A DNA stretch of 59,762 bases from a virus. Below are positions 14,205 through 38,299 of this stretch, one piece after another (the first letter of the stretch is position 1; each line of letters starts with the position of its first letter). A program made the translations under genes and the position numbers. The stretch lies in IMG/VR virus record IMGVR_UViG_3300005432_000333, positions 1 through 59,762 of that record. One strand, written 5' to 3'. The notes beneath the pieces were generated by a model. That model was not told the DNA's origin and made no database searches. It saw only the letters and a program-made list of their open reading frames with translations.

Positions 14205-14606
14205 TTATTTTTTCTTTTTGGTAGCGACGTTTATTGCTTTACCACGCCTATTTGGATTTGGATCTTTTCTTCTTTTTCTACGTGCCGCACTTGCCCTGCC
14301 TTTTTTACCTAGTGCGTATGCTTTAGACCTCGGTAAACATTTAGGCTTGCCTTCACCCTTGCTTTTGCCACCGCATGATCCTCGGATTTTTCCACCTGGA
14401 CCCATTCGTACCCATTTGTCCTTGAACCACTTCTTAAGATTTTCATCTAATGATTCGTGTAGCACGAGTCCATGGCAGTTCACACAGAAGTCTACGTGTT
14501 CTCTCTTAACGCAGTTGGGCACACGTTTGCCGAACATGGTCTTCATGCCCTTCTTCTCGTAGCCTTTCCAACAACGTGTTCCTTCTAGAATTTCGTTTAT
14601 CTTCAT
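14205..14606 (-). CDS. Basic protein with DUF5872-like domain; candidate head-internal protein
   Basis: 133 residues. N-terminus MKINEILEG fits the shared M-K-I-x-E motif, with ILE|G as a possible prohead protease site. A Cys/His-containing region (CWKGYEKKG..., CVNCH) is followed by KWVRMGPGGKIRGSCGGKSKGEGKPKCLPRSKA, as in DUF5872, and a very basic tail of about 35 residues rich in K and R. The start overlaps the stop of the next gene upstream by one base (TAATG). The basic tail suggests nucleic-acid binding. A DNA-associated internal head protein is my inference. Confidence 0.65.
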   Translation of the reverse strand: MKINEILEGTRCWKGYEKKGMKTMFGKRVPNCVKREHVDFCVNCHGLVLHESLDENLKKWFKDKWVRMGPGGKIRGSCGGKSKGEGKPKCLPRSKAYALGKKGRASAARRKRRKDPNPNRRGKAINVATKKKK

Positions 14607-14791
14607 TACTTCTTACTCTTGTTGCCCCAATTGGCCGCGCCTTTTTTACGACACTGAACTAGAGCACCAGAGGCGTAAGCCGAAGGCCAAACTTTGTATC
14701 TTGATCTGACTTTGTGATAGCAGGCGTCTTTCTTCTCTGCTAGTTTTTCAAACTCTTCTAATGTGATTCCTGTGACTTCGTTAACTTTCAT
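14606..14791 (-). CDS. Small conserved phage protein (YHKVRSRYKVWPSAYASGALVQC type)
   Basis: 61 residues. N-terminus MKVNEVTGITLEE fits the shared motif with TLE|E as a possible cleavage point. The remainder is a compact basic domain, ACYHKVRSRYKVWPSAYAS then GALVQCRKKGAANWGNKSK, a sequence type that recurs in T4-like marine phages and large viruses. I start at the ATG at 14791, one base after the stop of the upstream gene, rather than at an in-frame GTG at 14848 inside it. Function unknown; it shares the basic Cys-containing character of its neighbours. Confidence 0.65.
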   Translation of the reverse strand: MKVNEVTGITLEEFEKLAEKKDACYHKVRSRYKVWPSAYASGALVQCRKKGAANWGNKSKK

Positions 14792-14792
14792 G

Positions 14793-15560
14793 TTACCACT
14801 TTCTACAAGACCAATATCTCGCTTTGGTCTTTGGTCCTGGGTTAGCACAGTTGTGACGTGCTCTAAAACTTTTTCTTGCTTTTGGATTGCTTTTTCTAAT
14901 TCTCATAGTTTTTCTTTTTGCACTAGTACCGCCGTGTCCAAAGTTTACTTTCTTCACGTTTCCGGATTTTGGATCCTTCACGTACACTTTAAATTTCTTA
15001 ACATCACCTCTCATTGGTTTATTAAGTGGCACTTTTCTGCCTCTGTATTCTGCGTCAAACAATTCTGTCTCGTCTTCTGGGAAACCTAATGGACCAAGCA
15101 CTTCTTCGAAATCCTCGTCCTCTTCTATGTTGAATTCATCACCTTCTGGGAATGGCTCGTAAGATTCGTCTGTTGATAAATCATCTTCAACCTGTCCAAG
15201 TGCTGTAAGAGCCGATGTCTTCCTGTCGTCGTCTATTGGCAATTCTGCTATCCTGTCTTTCATAGCGGAAATGTCTAACATCAGTTTTGTGTAATCTATG
15301 TCGCTGTCTTTCGGTGCTTCGTTAGTTGTTGCGTTCACACCGTCAATCCTGCTTATTAAAGATTTCATGTCTTCCATTGTAATCGATTCTCCCATCTGCA
15401 TTTGTGTTTTGTCTTTTGTGAATTGTGTGGTCTTAGTCAAGCCTCTGCTACCAGCACTTGCAGGTGACTGCACCTGTTTCTTAGCATCAACAACACCTTG
15501 GTCTCGTAGTTTCACAGTGTCGTCTATGTATTTGCCGTAGTTGTAAGGTATACCCGTCAT
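14793..15560 (-). CDS. Late protein with acidic middle and basic DUF5754-like C-terminus
   Basis: 255 residues. The N-terminal third is polar and low-complexity, and the middle (about 120-165) is very acidic. The C-terminal 75 residues are basic: KVYVKDPKSGNVKKVNFGHG, then RIRKSNPKARKSFRARHNC and PGPKTKARYWSCRKW, resembling DUF5754. A late promoter (15567-15574) drives it. It is the third gene in a row with a conserved basic Cys-containing C-terminal domain. The protein lacks the MKINE-type N-terminus, so it may be a virion or core protein by another route. Confidence 0.65.
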   Translation of the reverse strand: MTGIPYNYGKYIDDTVKLRDQGVVDAKKQVQSPASAGSRGLTKTTQFTKDKTQMQMGESITMEDMKSLISRIDGVNATTNEAPKDSDIDYTKLMLDISAMKDRIAELPIDDDRKTSALTALGQVEDDLSTDESYEPFPEGDEFNIEEDEDFEEVLGPLGFPEDETELFDAEYRGRKVPLNKPMRGDVKKFKVYVKDPKSGNVKKVNFGHGGTSAKRKTMRIRKSNPKARKSFRARHNCANPGPKTKARYWSCRKW

Positions 15561-15566
15561 ATGATG

Positions 15567-15574
15567 TATTTATT
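15567..15574 (-). promoter_or_regulatory. T4-type late promoter
   Basis: AATAAATA on the minus strand, 6 nt from the ATG at 15560 (AATAAATACATCATATG). Confidence 0.6.
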
Positions 15575-16211
15575 TCCACAGCACCATCTTGAAACGTTCT
15601 TTGTCTATGCCAAAAAACTTTGTTTTCCATGCACTTTGCTCAAAAAATCCTAACGAATGCCACTCATCCTTGCGTTCTAGCATTGCTTTTGCCCTTTCAT
15701 CCCAATCCTGATTGAGTAAAAATTCTTCCATTGATGCTTTCTTGTCTGCAATCTCGTTGTACTCAAAACCATCATACTCCCAATGCAGTAATTCAAAAAC
15801 ATTGCCTTCACGATCACAGTAGTCTATGCTGAAATCCAGTCCCCATTTTGGTTTCATTGCAACCAGTTTGTGGAAGTGTGGTCGATAGTCTGCCCAAGAT
15901 TTAAGTTGTTGCAGGGCATCACCTGAGTATCCCTTTCTCTCAAACATCACGGCATGATTTACATGTGGTCCAGATTCCGGTGAATCGTCTGTGAACCAGG
16001 TCTTACGCAAAGTTATGTGTTCACCGTCCCTGTGTTTTGTGGTATTTTCACCATTGGCCACAGCATATAGTTGCTCTAGTTTGGTAAGGTCATAACCATT
16101 CTGGTCAAACAGTGCAACGGTGTCTTTAGGTGGACAGGCGAATACACTGCTAATACGTTCACTCCAATAAGGGTTCGAATTGAACTTGTTGTCGGTCAAG
16201 TGTAATTGCAT
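15570..16211 (-). CDS. Hypothetical protein, Trp/His-rich
   Basis: 213 residues, soluble-looking, with many aromatic and histidine residues. GENTTKHRDGEHITLRKTWF and NHAVMFERKGYSGDALQQLKSWADYRPHFHKLVAMKPKWGLDFSIDY are the most distinctive parts. The HxD-like pairs recall oxygenase folds but no convincing motif set is present. It is preceded by a weak late-type element at 16217-16223. Similar unknown proteins occur in T4-like marine phages. Its stop lies inside the late promoter of the next gene. Confidence 0.6.
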   Translation of the reverse strand: MQLHLTDNKFNSNPYWSERISSVFACPPKDTVALFDQNGYDLTKLEQLYAVANGENTTKHRDGEHITLRKTWFTDDSPESGPHVNHAVMFERKGYSGDALQQLKSWADYRPHFHKLVAMKPKWGLDFSIDYCDREGNVFELLHWEYDGFEYNEIADKKASMEEFLLNQDWDERAKAMLERKDEWHSLGFFEQSAWKTKFFGIDKERFKMVLWK

Positions 16212-16216
16212 ACACT

Positions 16217-16223
16217 TATTTAA
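16217..16223 (-). promoter_or_regulatory. Weak T4-type late promoter
   Basis: TTAAATA on the minus strand, 5 nt before the ATG at 16211. It departs from TATAAATA at two positions. Confidence 0.35.
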
Positions 16224-16232
16224 TTTTTTAGA

Positions 16233-17081: not shown

Positions 17082-17087
17082 ATGAAG

Positions 17088-17095: not shown

Positions 17096-17107
17096 TTTGT
17101 TGTACTT

Positions 17108-18193
17108 TTATTTAATGCGTTGATCAAGCAGTATAGCAAGTTTTGACTCGTATGCCAATGCTTCGGTTTTTACAAATTTGCTATATTTTTCCTGCATACC
17201 TTTTACGAAACTGAGGTCTCTTCCAGATTCTAGTCTTACTTTGACTGCTGACAAGTCTTTTTTAATCATATCAGCAAGTTCTGTTTTGCCTTGATCCTGT
17301 GCTAATTCAAGTGCTGTCTCCATTGCCTGCACAGCCGGTATACTTCTGTCTATTGCGTCCTGTATCGAACCAACACCTGCCAATCCTGCCACCACAACAC
17401 CGGCCATTGCTAGGTTACGTGCCCAGTCTTTGATACCTTCATCTAACACTGCTTCTTTTTTAGGCTTGCCGTGTTTGTTATGCTGTGCCCATGCTATGGC
17501 GTAAGGTGCTCCCTTGTCTTTGAATTTTTTCTTAAGTGCTTTAACCTGTTTCTCTCTGCCTGGAGGTGCTTCCTCATTATTTTTTCTTTGTTCTTTTGCT
17601 ATCTCTTTTTCAACTTCGTTTACCCTCTTGGCAAGTATATTCATCATGCCTGGCTTTGTGTCCACATCATCTAACGAAGTTTCCCTTGCTAGAATCTCAT
17701 CAATGTGTTTCTGCACTATACCAGCATGTCTTTGTAATATGTTTGAGTCTAATTCTTCCCTGTATGGATTAAGTTTCTGATATTCTTCGTAGTTGTGTAC
17801 ACCCTGTAGGTAATCTGCCGCCTTGTTCAATTTGCTCTGCACCCAACCCTCAAGGTCATCACCCTTGTCGATCATGTCCATCAACTCTATCGCATACTTG
17901 GCAGTGTGATACAATGTGCTTTTACTCATGTGTCCTTCGCCTGCGTCTTCCGTCATGCCACCATCATCGTATAGGCCGGCCTTCTCGCCCTGCATATAGC
18001 CATGCACTTTTTTTACATAGTCACCCGCAAGGTCAATTTTCTTTGCCACCCATGCCTCCATCTCCGCGGAGTCATCGATCATGTTGTGTATTTTTATTGC
18101 GTGTTTGCCAATCTTTAACAATTGGTTAAGAGCCATCGAAGCCTCATATGTGTCTGCTTCGACTGGCTGGTTGTGTAGTTCATTAATTTTCAT
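17108..18193 (-). CDS. Late protein with duplicated helical domain; candidate head-internal protein
   Basis: 361 residues. N-terminus MKINELHNQPVEAD fits the shared motif. Residues about 24-68 and 93-137 are an internal duplication: each has I/L-H/M-x-M-I-D, then E-x-W-V-x-x-K-x-x-x-A-x-D-Y-x-x-x-V-H. Later comes a KKKFKDKGAPYAIAWAQHNKHG segment, then a glycine/alanine-rich hydrophobic stretch (MAGVVVAGLAGVG, about 268-280) that could be a membrane or fusion-like helix, and a helical C-terminus. It follows the 18195-18986 gene by one base, so both probably use the late promoter at 18995-19003. Confidence 0.65.
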   Translation of the reverse strand: MKINELHNQPVEADTYEASMALNQLLKIGKHAIKIHNMIDDSAEMEAWVAKKIDLAGDYVKKVHGYMQGEKAGLYDDGGMTEDAGEGHMSKSTLYHTAKYAIELMDMIDKGDDLEGWVQSKLNKAADYLQGVHNYEEYQKLNPYREELDSNILQRHAGIVQKHIDEILARETSLDDVDTKPGMMNILAKRVNEVEKEIAKEQRKNNEEAPPGREKQVKALKKKFKDKGAPYAIAWAQHNKHGKPKKEAVLDEGIKDWARNLAMAGVVVAGLAGVGSIQDAIDRSIPAVQAMETALELAQDQGKTELADMIKKDLSAVKVRLESGRDLSFVKGMQEKYSKFVKTEALAYESKLAILLDQRIK

Positions 18194-18194: not shown

Positions 18195-18986
18195 TTAATT
18201 AAATCCTACGTGTGTTACTTCTGGGTGTTGTTTCTTAATTCTTTTTGCTTCCATGTCGTACATTTCTACTTCATCGTAGTATGGATTATCTTTGTCACTG
18301 ACATTCATTCTGAGGTATTTGTCTGTTGCGGCTAAAAATTTTTCAATCGGAGTTGAACCTGTGTTCTCGAAGTCTGGGTCCAATCCTATCCTTGACAACA
18401 ACATCCTTGCGTTTGCGTTTGATCTGTGTGGTGTTTTGAACTCCATGTCATCTGGATATGTCATTGTCTTACCTTCAGGATCTTTTGGATCCTTGTAGTA
18501 GCCATAGAAGTCTGCACCCTCTTCCATTGACTCGTCCTTGATCAAATCATGTTGGTGTTTCTGTAGATCGGCCATGTTGTCAAATGTGCCTGTCAGTTTG
18601 CCGTGTCTGTAAGAGTAGAACTTGCCGTCCTTGTTCCTTGCGGCCAGTCCGTACTTGTTCATGCTTCTGGCTGTGTTGTCCTCAGCATCTGTTAAGTTTT
18701 TCATTGGCTTCATTACTGACAGATAGCCTTCTTGGTCACCATACATTTTTTTGAAAGTTTCTGGATCGTGATCTGCTATTGTTTTCATTATCCACTCTCT
18801 CGGAGCAGTGTCTGAATCATCGAGAAGTTGTGCTAACGATTTCAGCATCTGTTTGTCTAGCATTTCAGCGGCATCCTTCATCACTTCATAATCCATTGAT
18901 TGTTTGCCTAACTCGTCAGCATATCTGTTGATTTGCCTCACTGCAAGTGTGGATCCTTCTGCTTTTTCAAATTCGTGGAATCTCAT
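18195..18986 (-). CDS. Hypothetical late protein; candidate head-internal protein
   Basis: 263 residues. N-terminus MRFHEFEKAEG fits the shared pattern, with KAE|G as a possible cleavage point. A helical first part (20-110, Asp/Glu-rich) is followed by KYGLAARNKDGKFYSYRHGKLTGTFDN and a Pro/Asp-rich part. No known domain recognised. A clear late promoter lies 8 nt upstream. The downstream 361-residue gene begins one base after its stop. Confidence 0.6.
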   Translation of the reverse strand: MRFHEFEKAEGSTLAVRQINRYADELGKQSMDYEVMKDAAEMLDKQMLKSLAQLLDDSDTAPREWIMKTIADHDPETFKKMYGDQEGYLSVMKPMKNLTDAEDNTARSMNKYGLAARNKDGKFYSYRHGKLTGTFDNMADLQKHQHDLIKDESMEEGADFYGYYKDPKDPEGKTMTYPDDMEFKTPHRSNANARMLLSRIGLDPDFENTGSTPIEKFLAATDKYLRMNVSDKDNPYYDEVEMYDMEAKRIKKQHPEVTHVGFN

Positions 18987-18994: not shown

Positions 18995-19003
18995 TATTTA
19001 TTA
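18995..19003 (-). promoter_or_regulatory. T4-type late promoter
   Basis: TAATAAATA on the minus strand, 8 nt before the ATG at 18986. Its first bases are the stop codon of the 56-residue Cys-rich gene. Confidence 0.65.
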
Positions 19004-19171
19004 AGCACAGGCTTCACAGCGACAGTGCTTACATACCTCTATTTCATACTCTGCACCACCGTCTACAGGGTATTCATTTTGTTTGCGTTTACAAATATCT
19101 CCGCAATGGCTGTCGCAACCACAATTTAAGCACTTTACAATCCATTCCTTTAATAATTCAAGTGGTTTCAT
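19001..19171 (-). CDS. 56-residue Cys-rich small protein (putative zinc binder)
   Basis: Short gene translating to 56 residues with nine cysteines and two histidines in two clusters: CLNCGCDSHCGDIC (14-27) and CKHCRCEAC (47-55). The spacing suggests one or two small metal sites. N-terminus MKPLELLKEW resembles, loosely, the shared late-protein N-termini. The start overlaps the stop of the 19171-19434 gene, so translation is coupled. Function unknown; nucleic-acid binding or redox roles are both possible. Confidence 0.6.
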   Translation of the reverse strand: MKPLELLKEWIVKCLNCGCDSHCGDICKRKQNEYPVDGGAEYEIEVCKHCRCEACA

Positions 19172-19434
19172 TATCTTTTGACCAGTGGTCCACCCATTAA
19201 ATTTACGCCAGGCAAATTGTGTGCACCTTTGGCAGTGCCATCTGGATTTTTTGGTTGAATAATTTTTGGTAATCTAGGTGCCCTTGTACCTGATCTTCCT
19301 GGTGATCCTGTGTATGCCTTGTTGCCTCGGTCCTTACCTATGGCAATGTGAGGTGATGTCACAGTGGCTATGTTGCCGGCGCTTGTAGCACCTGCAGTGG
19401 CCTGTTCACGCATTATAACCTCATTGATTTTCAT
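19171..19434 (-). CDS. Small basic late protein; candidate head-internal protein
   Basis: 87 residues. N-terminus MKINEVIMREQATAG fits the shared motif. The rest is Gly/Ala/Pro/Lys-rich with little predicted structure (SAGNIATVTSPHIAIGKD, RAPRLPKIIQPKNPDGTAK), as in short phage proteins of marine T4-like viruses. Net charge is positive. It has its own late promoter at 19441-19449, which lies inside the end of the next gene upstream. Confidence 0.6.
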   Translation of the reverse strand: MKINEVIMREQATAGATSAGNIATVTSPHIAIGKDRGNKAYTGSPGRSGTRAPRLPKIIQPKNPDGTAKGAHNLPGVNLMGGPLVKR

Positions 19435-20213: not shown

Positions 20214-20939
20214 TTATTTTGATTTTTTACGCCCTGACTTCATGTTGGCACACCAGTGGTACATCTTTGCACGTTCTCCTGATGCCTTTTTCGCCTTGCT
20301 TCTTAATGATGTTACTGATCCCTTGCAACTGGCACCTGCACGTTTCACACGTCCTGGTCTGCTCTTGCCCTTCTTTTTGCCATCTGCGAAGTTCTCGTTG
20401 AATTCCTTCCAGTCTAACTTCAATTTCTTGACGTTCATGTACTGGCCACCAACTGGTACATCTTTTGTGGCGTTCTGTTTAGTTACTATGCCAACCCCTG
20501 CGGCCTCTTCACTAATAGGCATCTTGGCATCTGCGGCCGCTTGTTTAATTTGATCTACTTTTTCTTTGGCCCTTGGATCATTTTTGTTTTGTGCCCACCA
20601 ACTGTCCATGTATTTTTGCCATGCCGCTTTACCCATTGTGTACAACGGTGTAAATGTTTCTCCAGGTCTACGTGGCTCTTTTAAATTTATCGATGTTATG
20701 ATGTTTGGTTCTCTAGGATTGGGTTTTAATCCTGCCTTCCTGGCTTCTGGACTGTTATAGAGATAAGGCATCACTGCGTCTGCCTGTCTCAGAGCATTCC
20801 AATTTATTGCGCCTTCGTTCGCTCTATTGTTGCCTACATTCTTGAAACCAAATCTGTTGTTTGGGCCTGTTCCGGGTTTGTGTATGAGACCCATTGTGTC
20901 TGCCGTGTGTGGCATTATTACAAATTCTTTTATTTTCAT
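20214..20939 (-). CDS. Late protein with basic Cys-containing C-terminal domain; candidate head-internal protein
   Basis: 241 residues. N-terminus MKIKEFVIMPHTADT fits the shared motif. The middle (25-180) is Asn/Pro-rich. The C-terminal 50 residues are strongly basic with two cysteines: KSRPGRVKRAGASC, KAKKASGERAKMYHWC, MKSGRKKSK. That domain type recurs in marine T4-like phages and looks nucleic-acid binding. The start overlaps the 49-residue gene upstream (ATGA). It is the fourth protein in this region with a conserved basic Cys tail. Confidence 0.65.
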   Translation of the reverse strand: MKIKEFVIMPHTADTMGLIHKPGTGPNNRFGFKNVGNNRANEGAINWNALRQADAVMPYLYNSPEARKAGLKPNPREPNIITSINLKEPRRPGETFTPLYTMGKAAWQKYMDSWWAQNKNDPRAKEKVDQIKQAAADAKMPISEEAAGVGIVTKQNATKDVPVGGQYMNVKKLKLDWKEFNENFADGKKKGKSRPGRVKRAGASCKGSVTSLRSKAKKASGERAKMYHWCANMKSGRKKSK

Positions 20940-21085
20940 TTCTTTACTCTATATGGATATGCCATCATGGAATGATATCCCATTCTTGATCTACCCTTTG
21001 CCTGTTTTTCGTATTTCTTTAGAAACTTGTTTACGTCATGATGGACGTACTTACGAACGTATTCTGTAATTTCTTTAATCTTCAT
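20936..21085 (-). CDS. 49-residue basic protein; candidate head-internal protein
   Basis: Short gene translating to 49 residues: MKIKEITEYVRKYVHHD at the N-terminus, which fits the shared motif, then a Lys/Arg-rich helix and a Met/Tyr-rich tail (MGYHSMMAYPYRVKK). Its stop overlaps the start of the 241-residue gene (ATGA) and its start lies 11 nt inside the FMN-reductase-like gene. The N-terminal similarity to its neighbour (MKIKE) supports it as real. No known function. Confidence 0.6.
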   Translation of the reverse strand: MKIKEITEYVRKYVHHDVNKFLKKYEKQAKGRSRMGYHSMMAYPYRVKK

Positions 21086-21739: not shown

Positions 21740-22294
21740 TTATTCATCTGCCCTCAAAGTTATTACTCCACAGGCCAATCTATCGCCTGCGTTTCCTGTT
21801 TTCAAACTTTCTTGATCTCCGCCTTTTCCGAGATCATCCTCATCTGCATGTACCACAAGTCCTCTTCCAACAACAGATCTTTCACCAATTAGGTCTACCC
21901 TACTTGCCTTTATTGAGAAATCTGCCTTGCCAGTTTCGTCGGCTGTTATGTTGCCTAAATCTCCCACGTGTCCTTCATTTAGGTCTCCGTGATCGACTCC
22001 ATCTGGATTGTAATGTCCACCCATCGATTCACAACCTTTGCTCATGTCGCCAAACTCGTGTATGTGGAATCCGTGAAGTCCAGGTTTCAGTCCTGTGATT
22101 GTGCCTTTGATCAAAGTTGGAGTTCCGGGAGCCTGCATCAATAATATACTGCCATTGACGTCATCCGAATGTTGTAAGTCACATTGTGCAATCACAGTGG
22201 ATTCACCCTCTGTGATGCTTTTTACCCTGCTACAAGAACATTCTTTTGCTCTAGTCCTAGGACATTTTGTTTCTGTGAATTCTGTGGCTCGCAT
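21740..22294 (-). CDS. sodC: Cu/Zn superoxide dismutase with head-targeting-like N-terminus
   Basis: 184 residues. All metal ligands of Cu/Zn SOD are present: H77, H79, H94 and H149 for copper; H94, H102, H109 and D112 for zinc. The disulfide pair is C88/C175 and the active-site arginine is R172 in DRLACGV. Bacterial SodC normally has a secretion signal; here the N-terminus is MRATEFTETKCPRTRAKE, a charged segment that fits the shared late-protein motif, with AKE|C as possible cleavage. The ATG at 22294 sits 7 nt after a late promoter. I infer packaging into the virion. An upstream in-frame start at 22480 would run through the neighbouring gene and is rejected. Confidence 0.9.
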   Translation of the reverse strand: MRATEFTETKCPRTRAKECSCSRVKSITEGESTVIAQCDLQHSDDVNGSILLMQAPGTPTLIKGTITGLKPGLHGFHIHEFGDMSKGCESMGGHYNPDGVDHGDLNEGHVGDLGNITADETGKADFSIKASRVDLIGERSVVGRGLVVHADEDDLGKGGDQESLKTGNAGDRLACGVITLRADE

Positions 22295-22301: not shown

Positions 22302-22309
22302 TATTTATT
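22302..22309 (-). promoter_or_regulatory. T4-type late promoter for the SOD gene
   Basis: AATAAATA on the minus strand, 7 nt before the ATG at 22294; it overlaps the stop region of the 22305-22514 gene. Confidence 0.65.
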
Positions 22310-22514: not shown

Positions 22515-22694
22515 TTAAATGGTCCAGTCTCTTATCTGTTGCTTGGTAGGTTTGTGCGCCTTAACTTTTTCTACCTTGCCACCTTTGGCTAGAAAGGCCT
22601 TCATCTTCTCATCTAGTTCTCTTTGTTTTTCTTGAGGTGTTTTTTCTATTTCACCTGCCGCGTATGGTCTATTGATTCCGCTGAACTTTGGCAT
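22515..22694 (-). CDS. 59-residue hydrophilic protein
   Basis: Short gene translating to 59 residues: MPKFSGINRPYAAGEIEKT, a charged helix (QEKQRELDEKMKAFLAKGG), and a basic C-terminus ending RDWTI. The stop TAA directly abuts the next ATG, and the start lies 26 nt inside the nucleotidyltransferase/HAD gene. Composition and coupling support it as real. No domain recognised. Confidence 0.55.
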   Translation of the reverse strand: MPKFSGINRPYAAGEIEKTPQEKQRELDEKMKAFLAKGGKVEKVKAHKPTKQQIRDWTI

Positions 22695-23841
22695 AGTCTT
22701 CTAGTCCTTTCTTCACTTTGTCAAGTGAGTCTCTGTTTGCTTGATATAATATTCCGTAACCGCCAGCCGCTTGCCATTTCTGTATGTTTACAGGTCTGTC
22801 GTCTATCAGAATGTTTGGGGTACCTGATGCTTTGTCTTTTGCATACGATTCTTTTCTTCCAGTGACAATTATGTCATCTGGTTGTTCTATGTTGTTTGCA
22901 ATCCATATCTTTTTGTATTTTGCTGAATTCTCATGATCACCTCTTAATGGTGAAGTGTTGATTGAAAAATTTCCACCCGTAAATTTTTTAACCATATCGA
23001 TTAATGCGTCTGCTGAGGGAAATTTAGGCAACACCGCAAAGAAGTCTGTGCCCGTGATCCTATCTATCACTTGTTTTTTAAGATCCTTTGTCTTGTCGTT
23101 TGTCAATTCTTTCCAGTGCTCAACACCATAAAGGAATTCAACACCACCGAAGAAATCTGCAAGAACTCCATCCATGTCAAGATACACAATTGGTTTACCA
23201 TCTGCCATATTTTCATTATACAACTTTTTGTTGTTTTCGTCAATCTGCTCCGCAAGTCTATCTTGTAATATGTTATATAACTTTTTACCAGTGTTTCCAC
23301 CCATTATTACTTTACTGAATTCGTGTTCTTGTCCTTTGTTGGCAAGTTCCCTTGCCTTAGATGCCGAGGCACCAGAGGCACCTTCTTGGTCTGGATCTCT
23401 TTCGCCGGCACTTACAACATCGATTGAATCAAACTTGTAAAGGTCATTTCCTGCTTTGTCTGGTTTTCCATTGTATTGATTTAGAAGTTTCTGGAATTCC
23501 ATTACTCTGTCAGAGCCAGCAATCATCACTATTCTGGTTCTGCCTTCTGCCTGTATTTTCTGTAGTGCTTGGATAATTGTTTTTACACCAGCATCGCCGA
23601 TGGCCAGTTGTGGATAAAACATTCGTAAGTAATCTTGCTTTTCTTTAAAAGTCAAAGGATCAGTTTTATTATTTTGCTTCTGTGAAAGGAACACATAACC
23701 TTTTCCGTTGACCTGTTTGGCCATCGAAATGACTTTGTCTAATAATTTCTGGTGTCCTATTGTGGGAGGATTAAATCGACCAAAGGCAAATACCGCTGTT
23801 GAACGATCGTCCTCCTTAAGAAACAATTCCCTGAGGTACAT
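22669..23841 (-). CDS. Nucleotidyltransferase / HAD 5'-nucleotidase-like fusion with head-targeting-like N-terminus
   Basis: 390 residues, two enzyme domains. Residues 14-200 form a cytidylyl/adenylyltransferase of the NMNAT type: GRFNPPTIGH (21-30, the HxGH family motif in TIGH form), the IAGSDRVMEF block, and SASKAR (159-164) in place of ISSTxxR. Residues 216-385 are a HAD domain: YLDMDGVLADF (220-230, nucleophile D222 and D224), then INTSP, then NILIDDRPVNI, as in 5'(3')-deoxyribonucleotidases. The first ten residues, MYLRELFLKE|D, resemble T4 capsid-targeting sequences with LKE|D cleavage. A role in nucleotide or NAD metabolism is possible; the substrate is unknown. Confidence 0.75.
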   Translation of the reverse strand: MYLRELFLKEDDRSTAVFAFGRFNPPTIGHQKLLDKVISMAKQVNGKGYVFLSQKQNNKTDPLTFKEKQDYLRMFYPQLAIGDAGVKTIIQALQKIQAEGRTRIVMIAGSDRVMEFQKLLNQYNGKPDKAGNDLYKFDSIDVVSAGERDPDQEGASGASASKARELANKGQEHEFSKVIMGGNTGKKLYNILQDRLAEQIDENNKKLYNENMADGKPIVYLDMDGVLADFFGGVEFLYGVEHWKELTNDKTKDLKKQVIDRITGTDFFAVLPKFPSADALIDMVKKFTGGNFSINTSPLRGDHENSAKYKKIWIANNIEQPDDIIVTGRKESYAKDKASGTPNILIDDRPVNIQKWQAAGGYGILYQANRDSLDKVKKGLEDYAKVQRNQ

Positions 23842-24172
23842 CGTATTCGCCTTGTTTTATATTTTCTAATTCTCTGTCTGAAATTACTCTAGCAACCTGT
23901 TGCCTTGTTTCTTTAGGAAACATGTCAACAACATCGTCTTGTGTAGAACCAAACTCTTTAACATATTCTTTAGCCGCATCATCCACTAGATACATCCAAA
24001 GTTTTTGTGCTTTTTCATGATCGTACACGTTCTTTTTTATTTTTCTTTTTATGTTTGATATGATGGGCATAAAACGTCTACGATACAAGTCCTCGTTGTT
24101 CATGATGTATGAATCAAGTTCGTTAACTGCGTCTGAGTCTATGCCTTCTTTAATAAATTGTGATGCTCTCAT
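23816..24172 (-). CDS. Small helical late protein; candidate head-internal protein
   Basis: 118 residues. N-terminus MRASQFIKEG is the closest here to the T4 targeting type (MKTYQEFIAEA), with IKE|G as a possible prohead protease site. The remainder is helical: RRRFMPIISNIKRKIKKNVYDHEKAQKLWMYLVDDAAKEYVKEFGSTQDDVVDMFPKETRQQVARVI. It has its own late promoter. The ATG at 24172 is chosen over an in-frame upstream start at 24271 that would lie in the next gene and remove the motif from the terminus. Confidence 0.7.
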   Translation of the reverse strand: MRASQFIKEGIDSDAVNELDSYIMNNEDLYRRRFMPIISNIKRKIKKNVYDHEKAQKLWMYLVDDAAKEYVKEFGSTQDDVVDMFPKETRQQVARVISDRELENIKQGEYDVPQGIVS

Positions 24173-24844: not shown

Positions 24845-25176
24845 TTGTACATCCTTTCGAATATTTCGGTGATTTCAATCCTACGTCCGCCCTGTGCCTC
24901 AAACTCGTCTATGAATTTGTCTATCAAGTTAGCCGCCAATCTTCTGTATTCTGGAAGTACATCTGCCTGTAATTTTTGTATCGACTTTTGTGGTACCGAC
25001 TCAACTATTGTGCCAACAGGCATACTATCAATCCAACTTCCTGCCTTGCACATATCATTCTGTATCTTGTGTAGTTCCTTGGTTGGATTAAATGTAGGTA
25101 ATATTTTACGTGATTCGTCTACAAGTACGCACATCAAAGTGCCAAAATAATCTTCTTTGTATATCTCTTTTTGCAT
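24832..25176 (-). CDS. Hypothetical protein, helical C-terminus
   Basis: 114 residues, mixed alpha/beta N-terminus (FGTLMCVLVDESRKILPTF) and helical C-terminus (LPEYRRLAANLIDKFIDEFEAQ). No domain or membrane segment recognised. It begins at the stop of the subtilisin-like lipoprotein gene and overlaps the 64-residue gene by 13 nt. Confidence 0.5.
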   Translation of the reverse strand: MQKEIYKEDYFGTLMCVLVDESRKILPTFNPTKELHKIQNDMCKAGSWIDSMPVGTIVESVPQKSIQKLQADVLPEYRRLAANLIDKFIDEFEAQGGRRIEITEIFERMYKWKK

Positions 25177-28136
25177 TACTCTTCTATTGGAACAAACATG
25201 TCCTTTTCAAGATCATACTTGAGTCCATGCATTTCTGCGTTGTTGATTGTGCCGTTTTGTGCGGCATATAATTTCTTCATATCTATTGGTGTTCCGTCCT
25301 CGTTGAAACATTTTGGATTTTTTGCCCATCCTAATTTTTTATCAAGTAGTTTGATTCCGGTGTTTGGAATTCCACAAGCAAGGTTTAATCTTTTGAAATA
25401 TTTCAATCCTACTTGTACACCATCTTCGCCTTGTTGTCCTGCTATATCCTGTCTGTATTCAGCACTGAAACTGAACGTTGCATCAAAGTCATCCGCTGGT
25501 TGATGTGCGAAGAAGAATCCAAAGTTCTTTTCCCTTGTATCCTGCTTAAGATCACTCTGTATGTTTTTGTAATTAATCGTTCCATCTAGATTAACACTTT
25601 CGGCTACTTCCAAGTCCATCGTGCCTGATGTTATATGACTTGGAAGTGAGAACGACCAACCGAAAGTTGTTTGCGTATCTTTGTGTATTTCATACGCCAA
25701 CCTGTAAGATTCTGTTTCAATGTCTGAGAAATTTTTAATCAGACTGTTGCTTGTGGTGTTTACATTTGTGTGTCCTTTAGTGTAATCAAGACTCAATACA
25801 TTATTTCCAAGTAAGTACTCTACACCTATGTTTCCAAAATTAGTGTTGTTGTTGTCTCCAACTGCAAGTATACCATCCGAAGAATTACCCAACCAAGTTT
25901 CTTGTTCACTCATCTGTCCTACACTTGTTTTCAATTTAAAGTTGTTATGCAACATAAAGTTCTTACCTATGTTTGCCGAGTAATCTCCGCCTCCGTTCTC
26001 ACCTGTGTAAAATCCAAAATTGTAATTATTAAGTAGGCTGTATTGTCCGCCTTGTGAGAAAGAACCAAAACTTTGATTCACTGGCAAGAAAGTGTTGTTG
26101 TTCACCATTAACATTTCTGTGTCAGAATATTTTCTATTATCCTGTACAGTGATGCTTGAACCAAGATTGATGTAGTAATCTCTGTCATAATCATCTAGCA
26201 CCATTATTTTCAGTCCCTGTAAATTTGAAAATGCTCCTGTAGAACCTGTGGCAAAGTATGTGTTGTTTAATGTTGTCACAGTTCCATCAACTCTGCCTGT
26301 TGTTGGAATACCTACTGCCCCTTGCGGTTTAGTTGCCTCGTCCAGGTCTAACATACCTTGTCCGTGAATATTGACATCATATCCATTAATGTTTGTGTCT
26401 GCGGTGTTCAAAACAAGTTGCACTAGGTTTTCACCTTTCATGTGTGGCCACATCTGATGTAAGATACCAACTGCACCTGTCACTTGCGGTGCCGCCATAC
26501 TCGAACCACTCATCTCAGAATAACCGTCACCGGCAACACTTGAAAATACATTATTACCTGGTGCCAATATGTAAAAATCTTTTACTTGATATTTGTCATT
26601 ACATTTGTTATCAACAATATCTAAACAGACGTGTCCTGATTTACTGCCTACAACCTGTCCGTCTTCTTTTGTGCCACCCCAGTTTCCTACAATAAGCATT
26701 TTGCCGCCTAGCACAAGGTTGCCGTTAGAGTCAACTTCTGTTGCCCATATACCTGGGTCAAGTGCAAATTCGGTGTTGACTTCTCCGTCTACCATCATAC
26801 CGTTACCTGCTGAATTTACAAGTACCACATCGTTGTCTGTGCCAACTTTCCAATAACTGGAACTGCCTTTATTTGCAGTAATTACTGAAGATGAATATGT
26901 GCCGTCGTCTAATTTTTTAATTGTGCCATAGTGATTAAATTGTATATTTTTGTTGAAACTCATATTCACTGCAACAATGTTCATGCCTTCTCCGCCATCA
27001 GACTTTTTTGCTTTAAGTTTTACAATATCATGTAAGGCGTTCTGTGCCTGGCCCATATTTGCATTTGAATTTCCGTAATAGTCAACATTGGCGCCGACTA
27101 GTTCTGCATCATAGGCCACACCGTGAAACTGATTGTCATCTTTGTTACCTGCAATTATACCTGCCACGTGTGTACCGTGCGATTGATATTTTCCTTTATT
27201 TTCAACAATCGAGTCATTTAAAACGTAATCTTTGTACCATTTGTATTTGCCATCTAATGCTTCGTGATCTGTTTGTTGATATGTGTCTATAACACCTAAC
27301 ACAGATCCTTTACCTGTCCAACCTCTTGCATAGGCCTTGTCAGCATTGATGATTGATTTACTAGTATCCTTGTTGAATTCTGTTGTTCTAAATTCGTGTC
27401 CAAGTGTTTTTACTACCTTCTTCTCTTCTTCCTTTTTCTCTTCCTTCTTCTCTTCTTTTACTTCCTCTTCTTTTTCTACTTTATTCTCTTCTTTTTTAGT
27501 TTCTTCTTTTTTAGTTTCTTCTTTTTTAGTTTCTTCTTTTTTGGCTACTTTCTTTTCCTTGTCTGCATTAATTTTTGTTTTCTTGTCTGCCACATATGTC
27601 GCCACCGTGTTTTCCTTTTCTTGCTTGATTATTTCTTCTGCTTTCTTATCACTGGCAACTTTGTTATATTCTGTAAGAGATAATTTCTGTCCTTGGGATA
27701 CTTTCTGTATCACTGGTTTCACATGGTCTTTCAAATATAATATTGCCGCATGGGCATTTTTGTAATCTTCACTGTTGTATATTTGCAATTTTGTGTCTGC
27801 ATCTTGTGATTCAATAAGGTCTAGTGTTTGCGTCCATAAAGTTTCTGCTTGGTCCAGCATGGTTAATAGATTGCCAGCCTTTGCAATATCCTTTTCTGTA
27901 GGTCCTGTGATAATTGCAGAAAGTCCTGCCAAATTACCACTAGATATTGTATTATTAAATCCACTTAATAAAGATGAATAAGAACTTATTATGGATTCAC
28001 TGCCTGTAAGACTTGACAGATCATCTTGCACAAAATTAGAAACAGAACCAATCGCACCACCGCCACCACCTCCGCCACAGGCTGTCAACGTAGTGGCCAT
28101 TACACCCGATAGTACAATGTTTCTTAACTTTTTCAC
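25176..28136 (-). CDS. Subtilisin-like (S8) serine protease lipoprotein with autotransporter-like C-terminus
   Basis: 986 residues. The GTG at 28136 overlaps the stop of the upstream gene (GTGA) and opens a lipoprotein signal: KKLRN, a hydrophobic stretch, then LTAC with lipidated C20 and a glycine run. After a helical region and a Lys/Glu-rich linker (about 195-245) comes the S8 domain: D284 (GVIDTYQQTDHE), H320 (SHGTHVAGIIAG) and S546 (GSSMAAP). The C-terminal 370 residues alternate like outer-membrane beta strands, as in S8 autotransporters, but do not end in the usual aromatic residue. A surface-located protease displayed on the infected cell, or carried on the virion, is inferred. Such large secreted proteases are rare in phages. 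Confidence 0.85.
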   Translation of the reverse strand: MKKLRNIVLSGVMATTLTACGGGGGGGAIGSVSNFVQDDLSSLTGSESIISSYSSLLSGFNNTISSGNLAGLSAIITGPTEKDIAKAGNLLTMLDQAETLWTQTLDLIESQDADTKLQIYNSEDYKNAHAAILYLKDHVKPVIQKVSQGQKLSLTEYNKVASDKKAEEIIKQEKENTVATYVADKKTKINADKEKKVAKKEETKKEETKKEETKKEENKVEKEEEVKEEKKEEKKEEEKKVVKTLGHEFRTTEFNKDTSKSIINADKAYARGWTGKGSVLGVIDTYQQTDHEALDGKYKWYKDYVLNDSIVENKGKYQSHGTHVAGIIAGNKDDNQFHGVAYDAELVGANVDYYGNSNANMGQAQNALHDIVKLKAKKSDGGEGMNIVAVNMSFNKNIQFNHYGTIKKLDDGTYSSSVITANKGSSSYWKVGTDNDVVLVNSAGNGMMVDGEVNTEFALDPGIWATEVDSNGNLVLGGKMLIVGNWGGTKEDGQVVGSKSGHVCLDIVDNKCNDKYQVKDFYILAPGNNVFSSVAGDGYSEMSGSSMAAPQVTGAVGILHQMWPHMKGENLVQLVLNTADTNINGYDVNIHGQGMLDLDEATKPQGAVGIPTTGRVDGTVTTLNNTYFATGSTGAFSNLQGLKIMVLDDYDRDYYINLGSSITVQDNRKYSDTEMLMVNNNTFLPVNQSFGSFSQGGQYSLLNNYNFGFYTGENGGGDYSANIGKNFMLHNNFKLKTSVGQMSEQETWLGNSSDGILAVGDNNNTNFGNIGVEYLLGNNVLSLDYTKGHTNVNTTSNSLIKNFSDIETESYRLAYEIHKDTQTTFGWSFSLPSHITSGTMDLEVAESVNLDGTINYKNIQSDLKQDTREKNFGFFFAHQPADDFDATFSFSAEYRQDIAGQQGEDGVQVGLKYFKRLNLACGIPNTGIKLLDKKLGWAKNPKCFNEDGTPIDMKKLYAAQNGTINNAEMHGLKYDLEKDMFVPIEE
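27420..27545 (-). repeat. Lys/Glu low-complexity tract inside the S8 protease gene
   Basis: Tandem codon-level repeats encode KKEETKKEETKKEETKKEEN followed by EE/KK-rich sequence, which on the plus strand reads as repeats of ttcttcttttttagt. It separates the helical N-terminal part from the protease domain and is prone to length change by slippage. Confidence 0.8.
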
Positions 28137-28318
28137 TGCAATAGATTCCCCATTATGAAAGCACCAAGTAAAAAGAAAAGTGCATATCTGGTTAATACTG
28201 AAGTATTCTTGAGAACTTTGTATCCGTTCTCTCGAAGGCATATAACATGGGCATCAATTGATTCCGATGTTATTTTCACATCAACTGTGTTGATCTGTTC
28301 TAGGTCATTGTCGTTCAT
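28133..28318 (-). CDS. Small tail-anchored membrane protein
   Basis: 61 residues: a soluble N-terminus (1-40) and a single C-terminal membrane segment, TRYALFFLLGAFIMGNLLQ. Its stop overlaps the GTG of the S8 protease gene, so the two are coupled. A sigma70 promoter ends 6 nt before the ATG at 28318, which makes this the leaderless first gene of the protease unit. Function unknown. Confidence 0.65.
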   Translation of the reverse strand: MNDNDLEQINTVDVKITSESIDAHVICLRENGYKVLKNTSVLTRYALFFLLGAFIMGNLLQ

Positions 28319-32238: not shown

Positions 32239-32440
32239 TTCCACTCCAATCTATTAATCCTTTTTGTATCTTTAAATGTGTTGCTATGTCTTTGTCGTCC
32301 CATTCCAATTCCTGCTGTATGGCCGCTATCAATCTTTCCACATCTTTTTGTGTCTGTGTTTGTTTTGCATATGTGCCATTTAATATTTTCCATGCCTTAG
32401 TTTCCTTTGGTCTTTTTATTTTTTGTTTGCCATTTCCCAT
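32189..32440 (-). CDS. Small basic hypothetical protein
   Basis: 83 residues, basic N- and C-termini (KQKIKRPKETKAWK; RSKRKPRKHIRKCS). Between them is a helix-rich QTQTQKDVERLIAAIQQELEWDDKDIATHLKIQKGLIDW. It overlaps clpA by 50 nt and the peptide deformylase by 25 nt. The long overlap with clpA is unusual, but the reading frame is open and basic proteins like this are common here. Function unknown. Confidence 0.5.
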   Translation of the reverse strand: MGNGKQKIKRPKETKAWKILNGTYAKQTQTQKDVERLIAAIQQELEWDDKDIATHLKIQKGLIDWSGNVRSKRKPRKHIRKCS

Positions 32441-32910
32441 CGTAGTTTAGATACCCTTTGATTAAACGTAATACCGTCAAGGTGATCGCATTCATGCTGG
32501 AAACACTTGGATTCCATTCCATCGAGTCTTGCTGTTTTTGTTTCACCTTTTGTTGTTTCATATTGTACTTCTACTGTCTTTGGTCTTTCTACTTTCAACC
32601 ATACTCCTTTAAAACTTAAACATCCTTCTAAGTCTATAACTTTTTCTTCACTAAAACTTATCACCTTTGGATTCCAAATTATAGCATGTTTTTGAAATGT
32701 GTCAAATGTTTCATGACCTATCGCAAAGAATCTTTTGGTAATGCCTACCTGGTTTGCGGCCAGTCCCATTCCTTTCTCGTCCAGCATCAACTTGATGTAG
32801 TCGTTTTCAAATTTTTGCAGGTCGTCGTATCCTTCAATGCTGTCATCGTGCGACCACTCCGTGCTAGTCTGTAGCAGTGTCTCGTGTGGGTATTGGAACA
32901 GTTGTATCAT
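32416..32910 (-). CDS. def: Peptide deformylase
   Basis: 164 residues. Removes the N-formyl group from nascent proteins, using a metal held by C97, H139 and H143. The three family motifs are present: GLAANQVGI (49-57, usual GLAAxQ), EGCLS (95-99) and HECDH (139-143, catalytic E140). Marine phages such as cyanophages carry comparable deformylases. It is coupled to the DnaJ-like gene upstream (4-nt overlap), which makes a small protein-maturation set with clpA and the GroES-like gene. Confidence 0.95.
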   Translation of the reverse strand: MIQLFQYPHETLLQTSTEWSHDDSIEGYDDLQKFENDYIKLMLDEKGMGLAANQVGITKRFFAIGHETFDTFQKHAIIWNPKVISFSEEKVIDLEGCLSFKGVWLKVERPKTVEVQYETTKGETKTARLDGMESKCFQHECDHLDGITFNQRVSKLRWEMANKK

Positions 32911-35980: not shown

Positions 35981-35988
35981 AATAGTAG

Positions 35989-35996
35989 TATTTATT
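35989..35996 (-). promoter_or_regulatory. T4-type late promoter
   Basis: AATAAATA on the minus strand, 8 nt before the ATG at 35980. Confidence 0.65.
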
Positions 35997-36007
35997 CTGA
36001 TAGACCT

Positions 36008-36226
36008 TTATTTTTTCTCTACTAGGTTCATCAGATCTTGTACGGTCTGGACTTTATCACCGTCGTCCTCTGATATTTTCACCCCTGTCGCTTTTTCCAC
36101 CTGTATGCACAATTCTATTGTGTCAAATGGATCTGCACCTAGATCATTCACTAGGTGTGCTTCTGGGGTGACCTTGCTTTCCGCAACATCTAGGTGTTCT
36201 GCTATTACTTTAATTACTGTCTGCAT
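36008..36226 (-). CDS. Acyl carrier protein-like, missing the phosphopantetheine serine
   Basis: 72 residues, four-helix ACP pattern (VIKVIAEHLDV, DLGADPFDTIELCIQVEKATGVKIS, TVQDLMNLVEKK). In functional ACPs the second helix begins G-A-D-S-L; here it reads G-A-D-P33-F, so the serine that carries 4'-phosphopantetheine is a proline (codon CCA; one base from TCA). It therefore should not carry acyl groups. It could act as a structural decoy binding host ACP partners. The start lies 17 nt inside the lipoprotein gene, preceded by GGGAGAAGAGA. Confidence 0.85.
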   Translation of the reverse strand: MQTVIKVIAEHLDVAESKVTPEAHLVNDLGADPFDTIELCIQVEKATGVKISEDDGDKVQTVQDLMNLVEKK

Positions 36227-36611: not shown

Positions 36612-37068
36612 AATTTGGATTCGCTAGTGCTGGGCACTCTGGGTTGATTTGTGATTTTAAAGTTGCTTTTAATTCTTCTTCTGTGTGTTCGGCACCTGAC
36701 GCCAGTTCAATGCATCTCGCCGCATTCTTGCCACCCTTGTTTATTACCCTCTCAACAGATGTGGTTCTCTCTAATGCTAGTTTGCCGATGTCTCTTTTTT
36801 TCTTTGTGAATCTTTTGTCTAGGTCATTTAAATCTTTTTTAAATGTGTTGATCAATACATTAAGTTTCTTGTTGCTTTCCATTATTGCTTCGAAGTCTTT
36901 TTTCTGTTGTTCCAAAACTTTAGTTTGCTCAGCGACGGCAGTTTCAAGTTTAATCTGATTTGCTTTCAAGGTGGCGTTGTCTGCCCTCAATTTCATAACA
37001 TACATACCGGCTCCAGCAATACCAGTGATAAGGATCACTGCGAAAATCATTTTGATACTTGAAAACAT
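36595..37068 (-). CDS. Rz-like inner-membrane spanin candidate
   Basis: 157 residues. One N-terminal membrane segment (IFAVILITGIAGAGMYVM), then a long coiled coil (LRADNATLKANQIKLETAVAEQTKVLEQQKKDFEAI..., to about residue 90), then a domain with C118 and C145. The topology (N-in, periplasmic coiled coil) is that of Rz-type i-spanins. It overlaps the M15 peptidase stop by one base and is followed by a lipoprotein gene, completing an endolysin / i-spanin / o-spanin order. Confidence 0.65.
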   Translation of the reverse strand: MFSSIKMIFAVILITGIAGAGMYVMKLRADNATLKANQIKLETAVAEQTKVLEQQKKDFEAIMESNKKLNVLINTFKKDLNDLDKRFTKKKRDIGKLALERTTSVERVINKGGKNAARCIELASGAEHTEEELKATLKSQINPECPALANPNYVPHQ

Positions 37069-37529
37069 TATTCGTATAAGCCGGACTTATAAACAGTCTT
37101 GCCATTCTCCTTTGTAGCAGTCAGCACATGTTTTCTGTTTCCTTCTGACTTATAGGAAACGTGTACCCAACCCGAATCAGGTATGCCAGGTGTGTAAAAT
37201 TCTAATATGAGTTGATCGAACTCAAGATTTTCTCTTATCCAATTTGCTACATCATAGTTTGGCGTGCCAGGACATTCGATATCTACTGCCTCACCTTTGC
37301 AGTGTTGTGATTTACTCGAGCCTCCAACTGCTTCATTTAATGCTGGTCCCCTGTATCCTGAATTGATCACTGTGACACCAAAGTTGTCTCTTACTTTCTG
37401 CACAACATTTTCAAACAATTCTTTGGCACTTGCTAGATGTTCTTCGTTGGGAGTGTTGTCAATGCCTTGCCTGGTTGCAGTTTGACTTTTTACAAATTCC
37501 TGTAATGTGAAGTTCGCACTTAATCTCAT
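37068..37529 (-). CDS. M15 family D-Ala-D-Ala carboxypeptidase-like endolysin
   Basis: 153 residues, Peptidase_M15_3 pattern. Zinc ligands H76 and D83 lie in the SxHxxGxAxD motif (SQHCKGEAVD) and H123 in WVHVSY. The N-terminal NFTLQEFVKSQTA and INSGYRGPALNEAVGG are typical of phage M15 endolysins that cleave peptidoglycan cross-links. No signal peptide, so a holin is needed for export; the holin-like gene at 33807 is a candidate. I start at the ATG at 37529; an in-frame TTG at 37544 would place the late promoter inside the gene. Confidence 0.85.
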   Translation of the reverse strand: MRLSANFTLQEFVKSQTATRQGIDNTPNEEHLASAKELFENVVQKVRDNFGVTVINSGYRGPALNEAVGGSSKSQHCKGEAVDIECPGTPNYDVANWIRENLEFDQLILEFYTPGIPDSGWVHVSYKSEGNRKHVLTATKENGKTVYKSGLYE

Positions 37530-37534
37530 GTAAT

Positions 37535-37542
37535 TATTTATC
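37535..37542 (-). promoter_or_regulatory. T4-type late promoter for the lysis unit
   Basis: GATAAATA on the minus strand, 5 nt before the ATG at 37529. Confidence 0.55.
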
Positions 37543-37561
37543 AATATATGCGTATATTATT

Positions 37562-38299
37562 TTACCAACCGCTTTTACTTATTACGGCAGATTGACCATC
37601 TTTGCTGAAGATAAACTTATTTTCAGTTGTTTTGGTAATGTTGTAGGGACCAAAATATTTTGTCAGGTGTGTGCATTCAGCGATTGAATTCATGTCAATA
37701 GCAAATGCTTTTGCTTCTTTTATAATTTCGTTTGTGGCGCCTATCTTGTGCATTTCAAAACTTATGGTTTCATTAGATCCGTGTTTCTTAAAATTTAACT
37801 TGTTTTCTGTTATATTACATTCCAGCATTTGATATTTGTCAAAGAAACTTTTTGCTTCACTGACTTTCATTTCGTTTACTGTTTGATCATATGCTTCTGG
37901 TGTAGTTGGAACACCCTCTCCTAATCCTGCATTCAAACTTGTTGGATTTGTACCTTTGTGATATGTGTAACTGAATTCTTCTATGTTTGTAAGTTTCTTC
38001 AAGTCCTCAACAAATGCCATAATTTGATTTGCAACTTCTGGAGTTCTAGCAAACTCTATGAAAACCTTATGCTTTCCATCCTCCAAGGTGCCTGGAGTAG
38101 AGTCGGCATCTAGCACTGACGAGTAACCTGCCTCTGCAAAACGTTCTAAATCTTTAGCGGGTGCATGTCCATCAACACTGAAAGCAAGGACCAGAATGTT
38201 CCTGTCTTCGCCCATCTTTGATTTGAATTGATCAATACTAAAACTAGGTGATACAACACCCTCTAGATCACCGGCTTTTAAACCTTCGTTTATTTGCAT
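37562..38299 (-). CDS. Late protein; candidate head-internal protein
   Basis: 245 residues. N-terminus MQINEGLKAGDLEG fits the shared motif, with DLE|G as a possible prohead protease site. Residues 30-130 form an alpha/beta domain (ILVLAFSVDGHAPAKDLERFAEAGYSSVLDADS, FIEFARTPEVANQIMAFVEDL). Residues 145-245 look like two related beta-rich repeats (MLECNITENKLNFKKHGSNETISFEM; GPYNITKTTENKFIFSKDGQSAVI). Unknown function. Transcribed with the 38299-38763 gene, sharing one base. Confidence 0.65.
   Translation of the reverse strand: MQINEGLKAGDLEGVVSPSFSIDQFKSKMGEDRNILVLAFSVDGHAPAKDLERFAEAGYSSVLDADSTPGTLEDGKHKVFIEFARTPEVANQIMAFVEDLKKLTNIEEFSYTYHKGTNPTSLNAGLGEGVPTTPEAYDQTVNEMKVSEAKSFFDKYQMLECNITENKLNFKKHGSNETISFEMHKIGATNEIIKEAKAFAIDMNSIAECTHLTKYFGPYNITKTTENKFIFSKDGQSAVISKSGW

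Follow-up and report, generated by a model that had tools for sequence, protein, structure and literature searches.

The viral DNA fragment considered here, referred to as the window, spans 59.8 kb (59,762 nucleotides; IMG/VR record IMGVR_UViG_3300005432_000333). Almost all of its genes lie on the minus strand, and it holds a block of genes, many of whose products begin with a short N-terminal motif similar to the capsid-targeting sequence of phage T4. The DNA polymerase of the window is closest to that of Sinorhizobium phage Phosso (50% identity), followed by that of the Agrobacterium jumbo phage Atu_ph07 (46%), which is reported to be close kin of the Rak2-like phages and to share T4 core proteins (PMC6102473). 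Eleven open reading frames (ORFs) had been named as carriers of the motif in an earlier reading of the DNA (the original prediction); all are present at their coordinates with the quoted N-termini exact, and all lie on the minus strand, which had been left unstated (Table 1). The starts of the Cu/Zn superoxide dismutase (SOD; 22294) and of the 118-aa protein (24172) fall within longer ORFs, and these internal starts are supported by orthologues that share the same Met and by a AATAAATA box 15 nt upstream of each. Pfam and PHROG scans gave no family for most carriers and unrelated families for others, and in relatives the same body is found behind differing leaders.

The strict form of the motif, M[KR][IAVF]xE[FILV], fits eight of the 11 named genes, while MYLREL and MRASQF are close variants and MQINEG, the start of 37562-38299, fails at position 6. 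This last gene does not stand as a motif carrier and was dropped from the tagged set because it encodes a conserved virion structural protein (PHROG 13138) whose named relatives, the homologues in Atu_ph07 and Phosso, lack the motif; it was likewise rejected as cargo, since the relatives (MKIVEGLAAGDLADLV, MKQYLREGLRENDLEELV) share its body and not its tag. In the block from 14.15 to 24.3 kb, the strict motif opens 8 of 16 genes, as opposed to none of the 178 other genes in the rest of the window and an overlapping contig of 138.7 kb (Fisher p 3e-10), although such p-values are optimistic because the motif was chosen on these very genes. None of 1167 internal Met positions carries it, and when the residues of the block were shuffled there were 0.03 matches on average and 2 at most, none of 5000 shuffles reaching 8. 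Taken alone, the counts demonstrate that the motif is local and not compositional in origin, and no more; evidence independent of this choice of genes is provided by the relatives and by phages whose virion proteomes have been published. The codons of the motif differ between genes (AAA or AAG; ATA, ATT or ATC; AAC or AAT; GAA or GAG), which indicates action at the protein level rather than a conserved nucleotide element. Boxes of the AATAAATA type occur 13 times on the minus strand and never on the plus strand, mostly 13-16 nt before a start codon (for example at 15574, 17095, 19002, 19448, 22309, 24187, 29010 and 39967), with a total not above the base-composition expectation, and probably represent T4-type late promoters that give very short leaders.

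Table 1. Motif carriers, predicted cut sites and associated features in the window (↓ marks a predicted cut, here and in the text).
Feature	Position	Strand	Remarks
133-aa basic protein (RCWKGYEKKGMKTMFGK module)	14205..14606	-	leader MKINEILE↓, 14583-14606
133-aa protein, predicted cut	after Glu codon 14583-14585	-	
61-aa protein (DACYHKV...GAANWG module)	14606..14791	-	leader MKVNEVTGITLEEFEKLAE↓, 14735-14791
361-aa protein, two LEgWVqxKL-type repeats	17108..18193	-	motif MKINEL alone, without conserved cut site
263-aa protein, motif MRFHEF	18195..18986	-	internal junction SMEE↓GADFYG
263-aa protein, SMEE↓GADFYG junction	after Glu codon 18519-18521	-	second module 18198-18518
87-aa protein	19171..19434	-	leader MKINEVIMRE↓, 19405-19434
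241-aa basic Cys-tailed protein	20214..20939	-	42-aa leader MKIKEF...GNNRANE↓, 20814-20939
49-aa basic protein	20936..21085	-	MKIKEITE↓Y, leader 21062-21085; only some relatives have the site
Cu/Zn superoxide dismutase	21740..22294	-	leader MRATEFTETKCPRTRAKECSCSRVKSITE↓, 22208-22294
Nucleotidyltransferase + HAD/5'-deoxynucleotidase fusion	22669..23841	-	leader MYLRELFLKE↓, 23812-23841
118-aa protein, unknown fold	23816..24172	-	leader MRASQFIKE↓, 24146-24172
AATAAATA late-promoter-like box before SOD	22302..22309	-	similar boxes near 19002, 19448, 24187
245-aa virion structural protein	37562..38299	-	PHROG 13138 head/virion protein, 2.4e-21, residues 2-237
Partner virion structural protein	38299..38763	-	PHROG 12928, 1.6e-25

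Searches of IMG/VR with three carriers yielded 127 loci. A junction set of 78 distinct sequences covers seven gene families and the capsid protein gp23. The residue before the predicted cut (P1) is Glu in 77/78 and P3 is I, L, V or M in 76/78, compared with a 25% background for Glu residues generally; these counts are descriptive, and their statistical weight is overstated because the sequences are related and not independent. In several families P2 varies while P1 and P3 stay fixed, and the pattern suggests that the N-termini of the relatives act as leaders that terminate in a protease site. In the 118-aa family the sequence is MRASQFI[KNSTIL]E↓[GNQA], with P3 and P1 constant and P2 and P1' free, while the nucleotidyltransferase family reads M[YHL]L[RK]ELFL[KRN]E↓D, two distant homologues starting with MSIKSFSDFLTE↓D and MINLKNITE↓I. 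All 14 distinct sequences of the 61-aa family have LAE↓K or FAE↓K, and the 87-aa family has Glu in 15/15 and L, M, V or I at P3 in 15/15, with a linker of variable length before the Glu. Leaders are 8-10 aa long in several families and 19, 29 and 42 aa in others, and end in L/I-x-E at the sequence level with the exceptions of the 42-aa leader (A-x-E) and of 17108-18193 (none). Among the cut sites of the original prediction, ILE↓G, LKE↓D and IKE↓G are kept across relatives, whereas KAE↓G (18195-18986) and AKE↓C (SOD) are not conserved; sites that had been overlooked are ITE↓G (SOD), MRE↓Q (19171-19434), LAE↓K (14606-14791), ANE↓G (20214-20939) and SMEE↓G, the conserved site of 18195-18986, which is internal rather than N-terminal. 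The peptide MRASQFIKEGIDS is an example of a predicted gp21-cut junction. In tblastn searches of named phages neither 17108-18193 nor 23816-24172 gave a match, and by eye the former is related to HTVC008M gp132 (MTRYTKTMAE↓A).

The body of the SOD is a full Sod_Cu domain (PF00080, 1.2e-45), the His and Asp residues of the metal-ligand region are invariant in 26 phage sequences, and Glu29 of SITE↓G is almost invariant in the 26 sequences. In a structure model the first ~30 residues are disordered (mean predicted local distance difference test score, pLDDT, 37-52) and the fold begins at residue 34, so that Glu29 lies at the fold edge and the disordered leader ends at the predicted cut site. The leader (MRATEFTET...KSITE↓G) is similar to the longer leader of T4 IPI (MKTFKEFTS...STITE↓A), for which the cut position is our own reading of the sequence. 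We know of no comparable phage-type tag on the SOD of chlorovirus PBCV-1, which differs from the window phage in being a eukaryotic algal virus. In PBCV-1 the Cu/Zn SOD is late, is packaged in the virion and probably lowers superoxide in infected cells (PMC7019647), and by analogy the phage SOD may plausibly serve to control superoxide early in infection.

Modules are exchanged at the Glu of the predicted site. A 42-residue leader (MKIKEFIIMPHTADTMGLIHKPGTGPNNRFGFKNxGNNRANE) precedes about eight different sequences in the relatives, among them SOD (locus L076), and the switch always falls directly after ANE↓ or GNE↓. Conversely, the 133-aa body stands behind at least five leaders (MKINEILE↓G, MRASEIITE↓K, MRITDVITE↓K, MRYAEIVTE↓K and NALVDE↓G), and the GADFYGYYKD module, which forms the second half of 18195-18986, occurs in relatives as a stand-alone gene, with the leaders MRAHEFTVKE↓, MKANEFIRE↓, MKVNEVLRE↓, MKVNEVIRE↓ and MKAQEFIQE↓ and the fusion junctions SMEE↓ and EINE↓. 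In cyanophages, the modules of 14205-14606 and 14606-14791 sit inside multi-module proteins of 490-1000 aa, mostly behind x-x-E, the second being preceded by IEE, MVE, MTE or LLE. On distant SOD contigs, SOD is one domain of a ~700-aa protein (MKIDDLITE↓...SOD...ParB-like nuclease) and is flanked by L-x-E-type sites. Two further kinds of protein with tag-like starts were observed in relatives. Locus L076 encodes a 94-aa protein (10533-10814; MKISEIISE↓LNRRDFLKKVGKGAAATAAFGAGAL) in which the start is followed by an apparent Tat export signal, and from its sequence it looks like cargo that would be released and then exported by the host. Near the SOD genes of distant relatives, L114:2852-9352 and L116:2929-9160 encode proteins of ~2070-2170 aa that begin MKFTEVKTLEHLLKE↓YATP and MKFSDVKTLEHILKE↓YSYN; a scan of one of them gave no PHROG match and a sub-threshold Pfam match only.

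The window holds no head protease, but one is encoded on an overlapping contig. This contig, G002, overlaps window positions 1-21755 (21,755 bp) with 18 mismatches and carries a head cluster of protease, scaffold-like protein and capsid protein in T4 order, the protease being of the gp21 type (PF03420, E 7.8e-26; PHROG 207 head maturation protease, E 6.8e-57). The gp23 of this contig reads ...TKRYLAE↓QSTAGATSAGNVATLN, with the cut position assigned by analogy with T4, and 19171-19434 reads MKINEVIMRE↓QATAGATSAGNIATV. The two junctions, RYLAE↓QSTAGATSAGN and MRE↓QATAGATSAGN, align in BLASTP with 13/18 identities (E 4e-6 for this single comparison), which indicates that one carrier copies the processing context of the capsid protein itself, namely its predicted mature start. 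Short basic proteins with a capsid-like start (MKINDIINE↓TASAGSTGAGSVATV) are also encoded by distant relatives (L121:6089-6277, L122:2979-3182 and L115:13223-13387), and suggest a widespread family of gp23-arm mimics related to 19171-19434. Elsewhere on G002, in the tail-gene half (40-49 kb; L139), consecutive genes encode proteins of 400-470 aa that carry FCxxPW or CCF-type motifs and are possibly radical-SAM-like.

Phages with published virion proteomes allow tag-like N-termini to be compared with virion content. A pattern was written from T4 IPII and IPIII (MKTYQEFIAE↓A); in an 18 kb T4 region it returns exactly these two proteins and misses IPI, which has a longer leader. Applied to ~250 kb of sequence from the cyanophages S-CREM2 and S-SCSM1, the pattern matches five ORFs, at least three of which are enzymes: S-adenosylmethionine (SAM) hydrolase (MKDFDSFLEE↓F), gp13 (MKDLHSFLTE↓Q), kinase ([M/V]KRFDAFLTE↓E) and cytidylyltransferase (MKNFSSFLTE↓A) in S-CREM2, and NMNAT (MKSFLQFLKE↓A) in S-SCSM1. 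All five appear in mass spectrometry (MS) virion lists, as given in table 3 of the S-CREM2 report (PMC10665884) and in the S-SCSM1 report (PMC9602691) and its record notes. In S-CREM2, for which the pattern is not fully blind as it was composed after the N-termini were known, it matches 4/13 non-structural virion proteins and 0/116 other tested ORFs (p ~6e-5); a looser and moderately selective pattern matches 6/13 and 13/105, respectively (Fisher p 0.007). The newly scanned S-SCSM1 regions yielded the virion NMNAT alone, the N-terminus of which had already been read beforehand. In S-SZBM1, the sequence of which was unseen at prediction, the MS-detected cytidylyltransferase begins MRFRQFIIE↓A, one residue short of the strict pattern (PMC9146016). 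A tagged protein in the mature virion is seen for homologous cytidylyltransferases of three cyanophages (S-CREM2, S-SCSM1 and S-SZBM1), which belong to the same enzyme family as that of the window. The tag-like N-termini of the virion enzymes end in (L/I)-x-E, or in E-E in the case of the SAM hydrolase (FLEE), and since these enzymes are either homologous to 22669-23841 or unrelated, what they have in common with the window proteins is the tag and not the body. The Cas9-like nuclease gp12 of S-CREM2 (L169:7704-10313), also reported in virions, has LRFASFMAE↓A ~17 residues past its annotated start, which hints at a mis-set start and a tag on this protein. No tagged ORFs were found in 40 kb regions of Phosso and of Atu_ph07, for which 131 virion proteins are on record.

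Taken together, these observations point to a T4-type capsid-targeting and prohead-protease system that serves clustered genes for enzymes and basic modules, a reading to which we give a probability of about 0.86. The central inference of the original prediction, a T4-like capsid-targeting sequence borne by unrelated bodies including enzymes, with cutting after (L/I/V)-x-E by the head protease, is supported by the protease and gp23, the junctions, the swaps and the cyanophage tags. In the proposed mechanism, the block at 14.2-24.2 kb would be a late 'internal head protein' gene cluster of a large T4-like phage, and a short capsid-targeting leader would dock each product in the prohead scaffold core. 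A gp21-type protease would then cut after the Glu of (I/L/V/M)-x-E, and possibly of A-x-E as well, freeing the body inside the head, whether Cu/Zn SOD, nucleotidyltransferase/nucleotidase, basic Cys-containing module or protein of unknown fold. The freed bodies would probably be delivered together with the DNA, injection into the host being suggested by T4 and by the type of cargo. The cut site may double as a boundary for module exchange, with a module found as a tagged gene, behind another leader or within a multi-module protein. It is somewhat probable that cargo evolution in marine T4-like phages uses the x-E↓ boundary of the prohead-protease site as a universal joint, at which enzymes and basic modules recombine, such that any module that acquires a leader or is joined to a multi-module protein turns into head cargo.

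Several observations weigh against this reading. Packaging and cleavage in the window phage are predictions from sequence, and the protease is located on the overlapping contig and outside the window. The motif is carried without a consistently conserved cut site by 17108-18193, 20936-21085 and, in part, 18195-18986, and in some SOD relatives the first of the candidate sites has no Glu (MLLFEFDKVGCPRT, MRFTEMTSCPRT), the second, ITE, being conserved. The T4-derived pattern also matches ORFs in S-SZBM1 and HTVC008M that may not be real genes, as well as the annotated SSZBM1_191 (MKSFKSFLSE↓S), which is absent from the S-SZBM1 MS list. Finally, the cyanophage proteome authors caution that virion enzymes may be co-purified contaminants; the common T4-like targeting leader weighs against co-purification of these enzymes.

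Other explanations would account for parts of the evidence. The carriers may be components of the prohead scaffold or core, like T4 gp67 and gp68, that act in head assembly and are then degraded and lost rather than delivered. Several small basic proteins do hold multiple or internal LxE sites, and a core-like protein of G002 (MSNNKFESLLELLINE↓EN) adjoins the protease, but SOD, with its conserved metal-ligand His and a site at the fold edge, and the nucleotidyltransferase are folded enzymes, and homologous cytidylyltransferases occur in CsCl-purified virions, making this explanation unlikely. Slightly less likely still is a leader that targets the head yet stays on, its Glu belonging to the binding motif. 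Uncleaved leaders would fit the carriers that bear the motif without a conserved site, and targeting and processing residues are separable in T4 (PMC9026906); they fit poorly with families in which P1 and P3 are fixed while P2 and P1' vary, with the variable linker of the 87-aa family and with swaps that fall exactly after the Glu.

The similarity of the N-termini could also be a by-product, either of AT-rich late genes that favour MK-x-x-E starts or of a conserved nucleotide element after the late promoter, and late-promoter boxes are indeed found 14-16 nt upstream of four carriers. Given that the codons vary, that late genes behind the same box lack the motif and that it is missing from all 178 other genes and 1167 internal Met windows, a by-product of this kind is very improbable. 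The near-identity of some leaders (MKINE) might instead reflect recent gene duplication, with the carriers as paralogues, although their bodies are unrelated or without relatives and one body has different leaders in relatives, so that we consider common descent of the carriers equally remote.

The capsid-targeting system proposed here follows the rules known from T4, in which gp21 cleaves at L/I-x-E and leaders of 10-19 aa are found on the internal proteins IPI, IPII, IPIII and Alt; the idea that such leaders let T4-like phages load varied proteins has already been stated (PMC9026906). Both have a short N-terminal leader (MKTYQEFIAE↓ in T4 and MRASQFIKE↓ in the window), an (L/I)-x-E site, unrelated mature bodies and a gp21-type protease. 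Unlike in T4, the leaders of the window are found on ~10 clustered genes, metabolic enzymes among them, modules have been shuffled at the cut site and can be part of multi-module proteins, and the leader consensus has drifted to MKINE or MRAxEF. Several cyanophages hold the basic modules as long multi-module proteins, whereas the window holds them as separate genes. In phiKZ-like giant phages (SPN3US and phiKZ), many head proteins are also cut by a gp21-like protease after the Glu of a short motif and are ejected with the DNA (PMC9026906, PMC10052503), though these phages are of a different lineage. Within the open-access literature searched, three aspects appear to be new. An uncultured and probably marine group of phages has many tagged enzymes and basic modules encoded in one large cluster, modules are exchanged precisely where the protease is predicted to cut, and virion enzymes of cyanophages bear a tag of this same kind. 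No paper linking these enzymes to a capsid-targeting sequence was found there, and the passages searched in the S-CREM2, S-SCSM1 and S-SZBM1 papers (PMC10665884, PMC9602691, PMC9146016) do not make the link.

Other genes of the window were observed in passing. An NADPH-dependent FMN reductase family protein (PF03358; 21075-21677) lies within the cargo block and is untagged. At 25176-28241 there is a 1021-aa subtilase-family protease (PF00082), the true start of which is probably internal as its G14 relative begins MSKLRNLLLSGAMATTLTACGGGG, a lipoprotein-like signal. An acyl-carrier-protein-like protein (36008-36226) and a peptide deformylase (32416-32910) are also phage-encoded.

Cyanophage virion proteomes repeatedly hold enzymes that are hard to tell from contamination, and a readable address tag would explain them and would allow packaged cargo to be predicted from sequence in uncultured phages. 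The exact neo-N-termini predicted here can be looked for in existing and new MS data, and the leaders represent a natural set for putting foreign proteins into phage heads. With such a tag, 'auxiliary metabolic genes' such as those for SOD and cytidylyltransferase become candidate pre-loaded effectors that would be active before phage transcription. Ultimately, if the protease site is a universal joint, virions across these phages would deliver cocktails to the host at time zero, which may include SOD, nucleotidyltransferase/nucleotidase, SAM hydrolase, kinase and even a Cas9-like nuclease.

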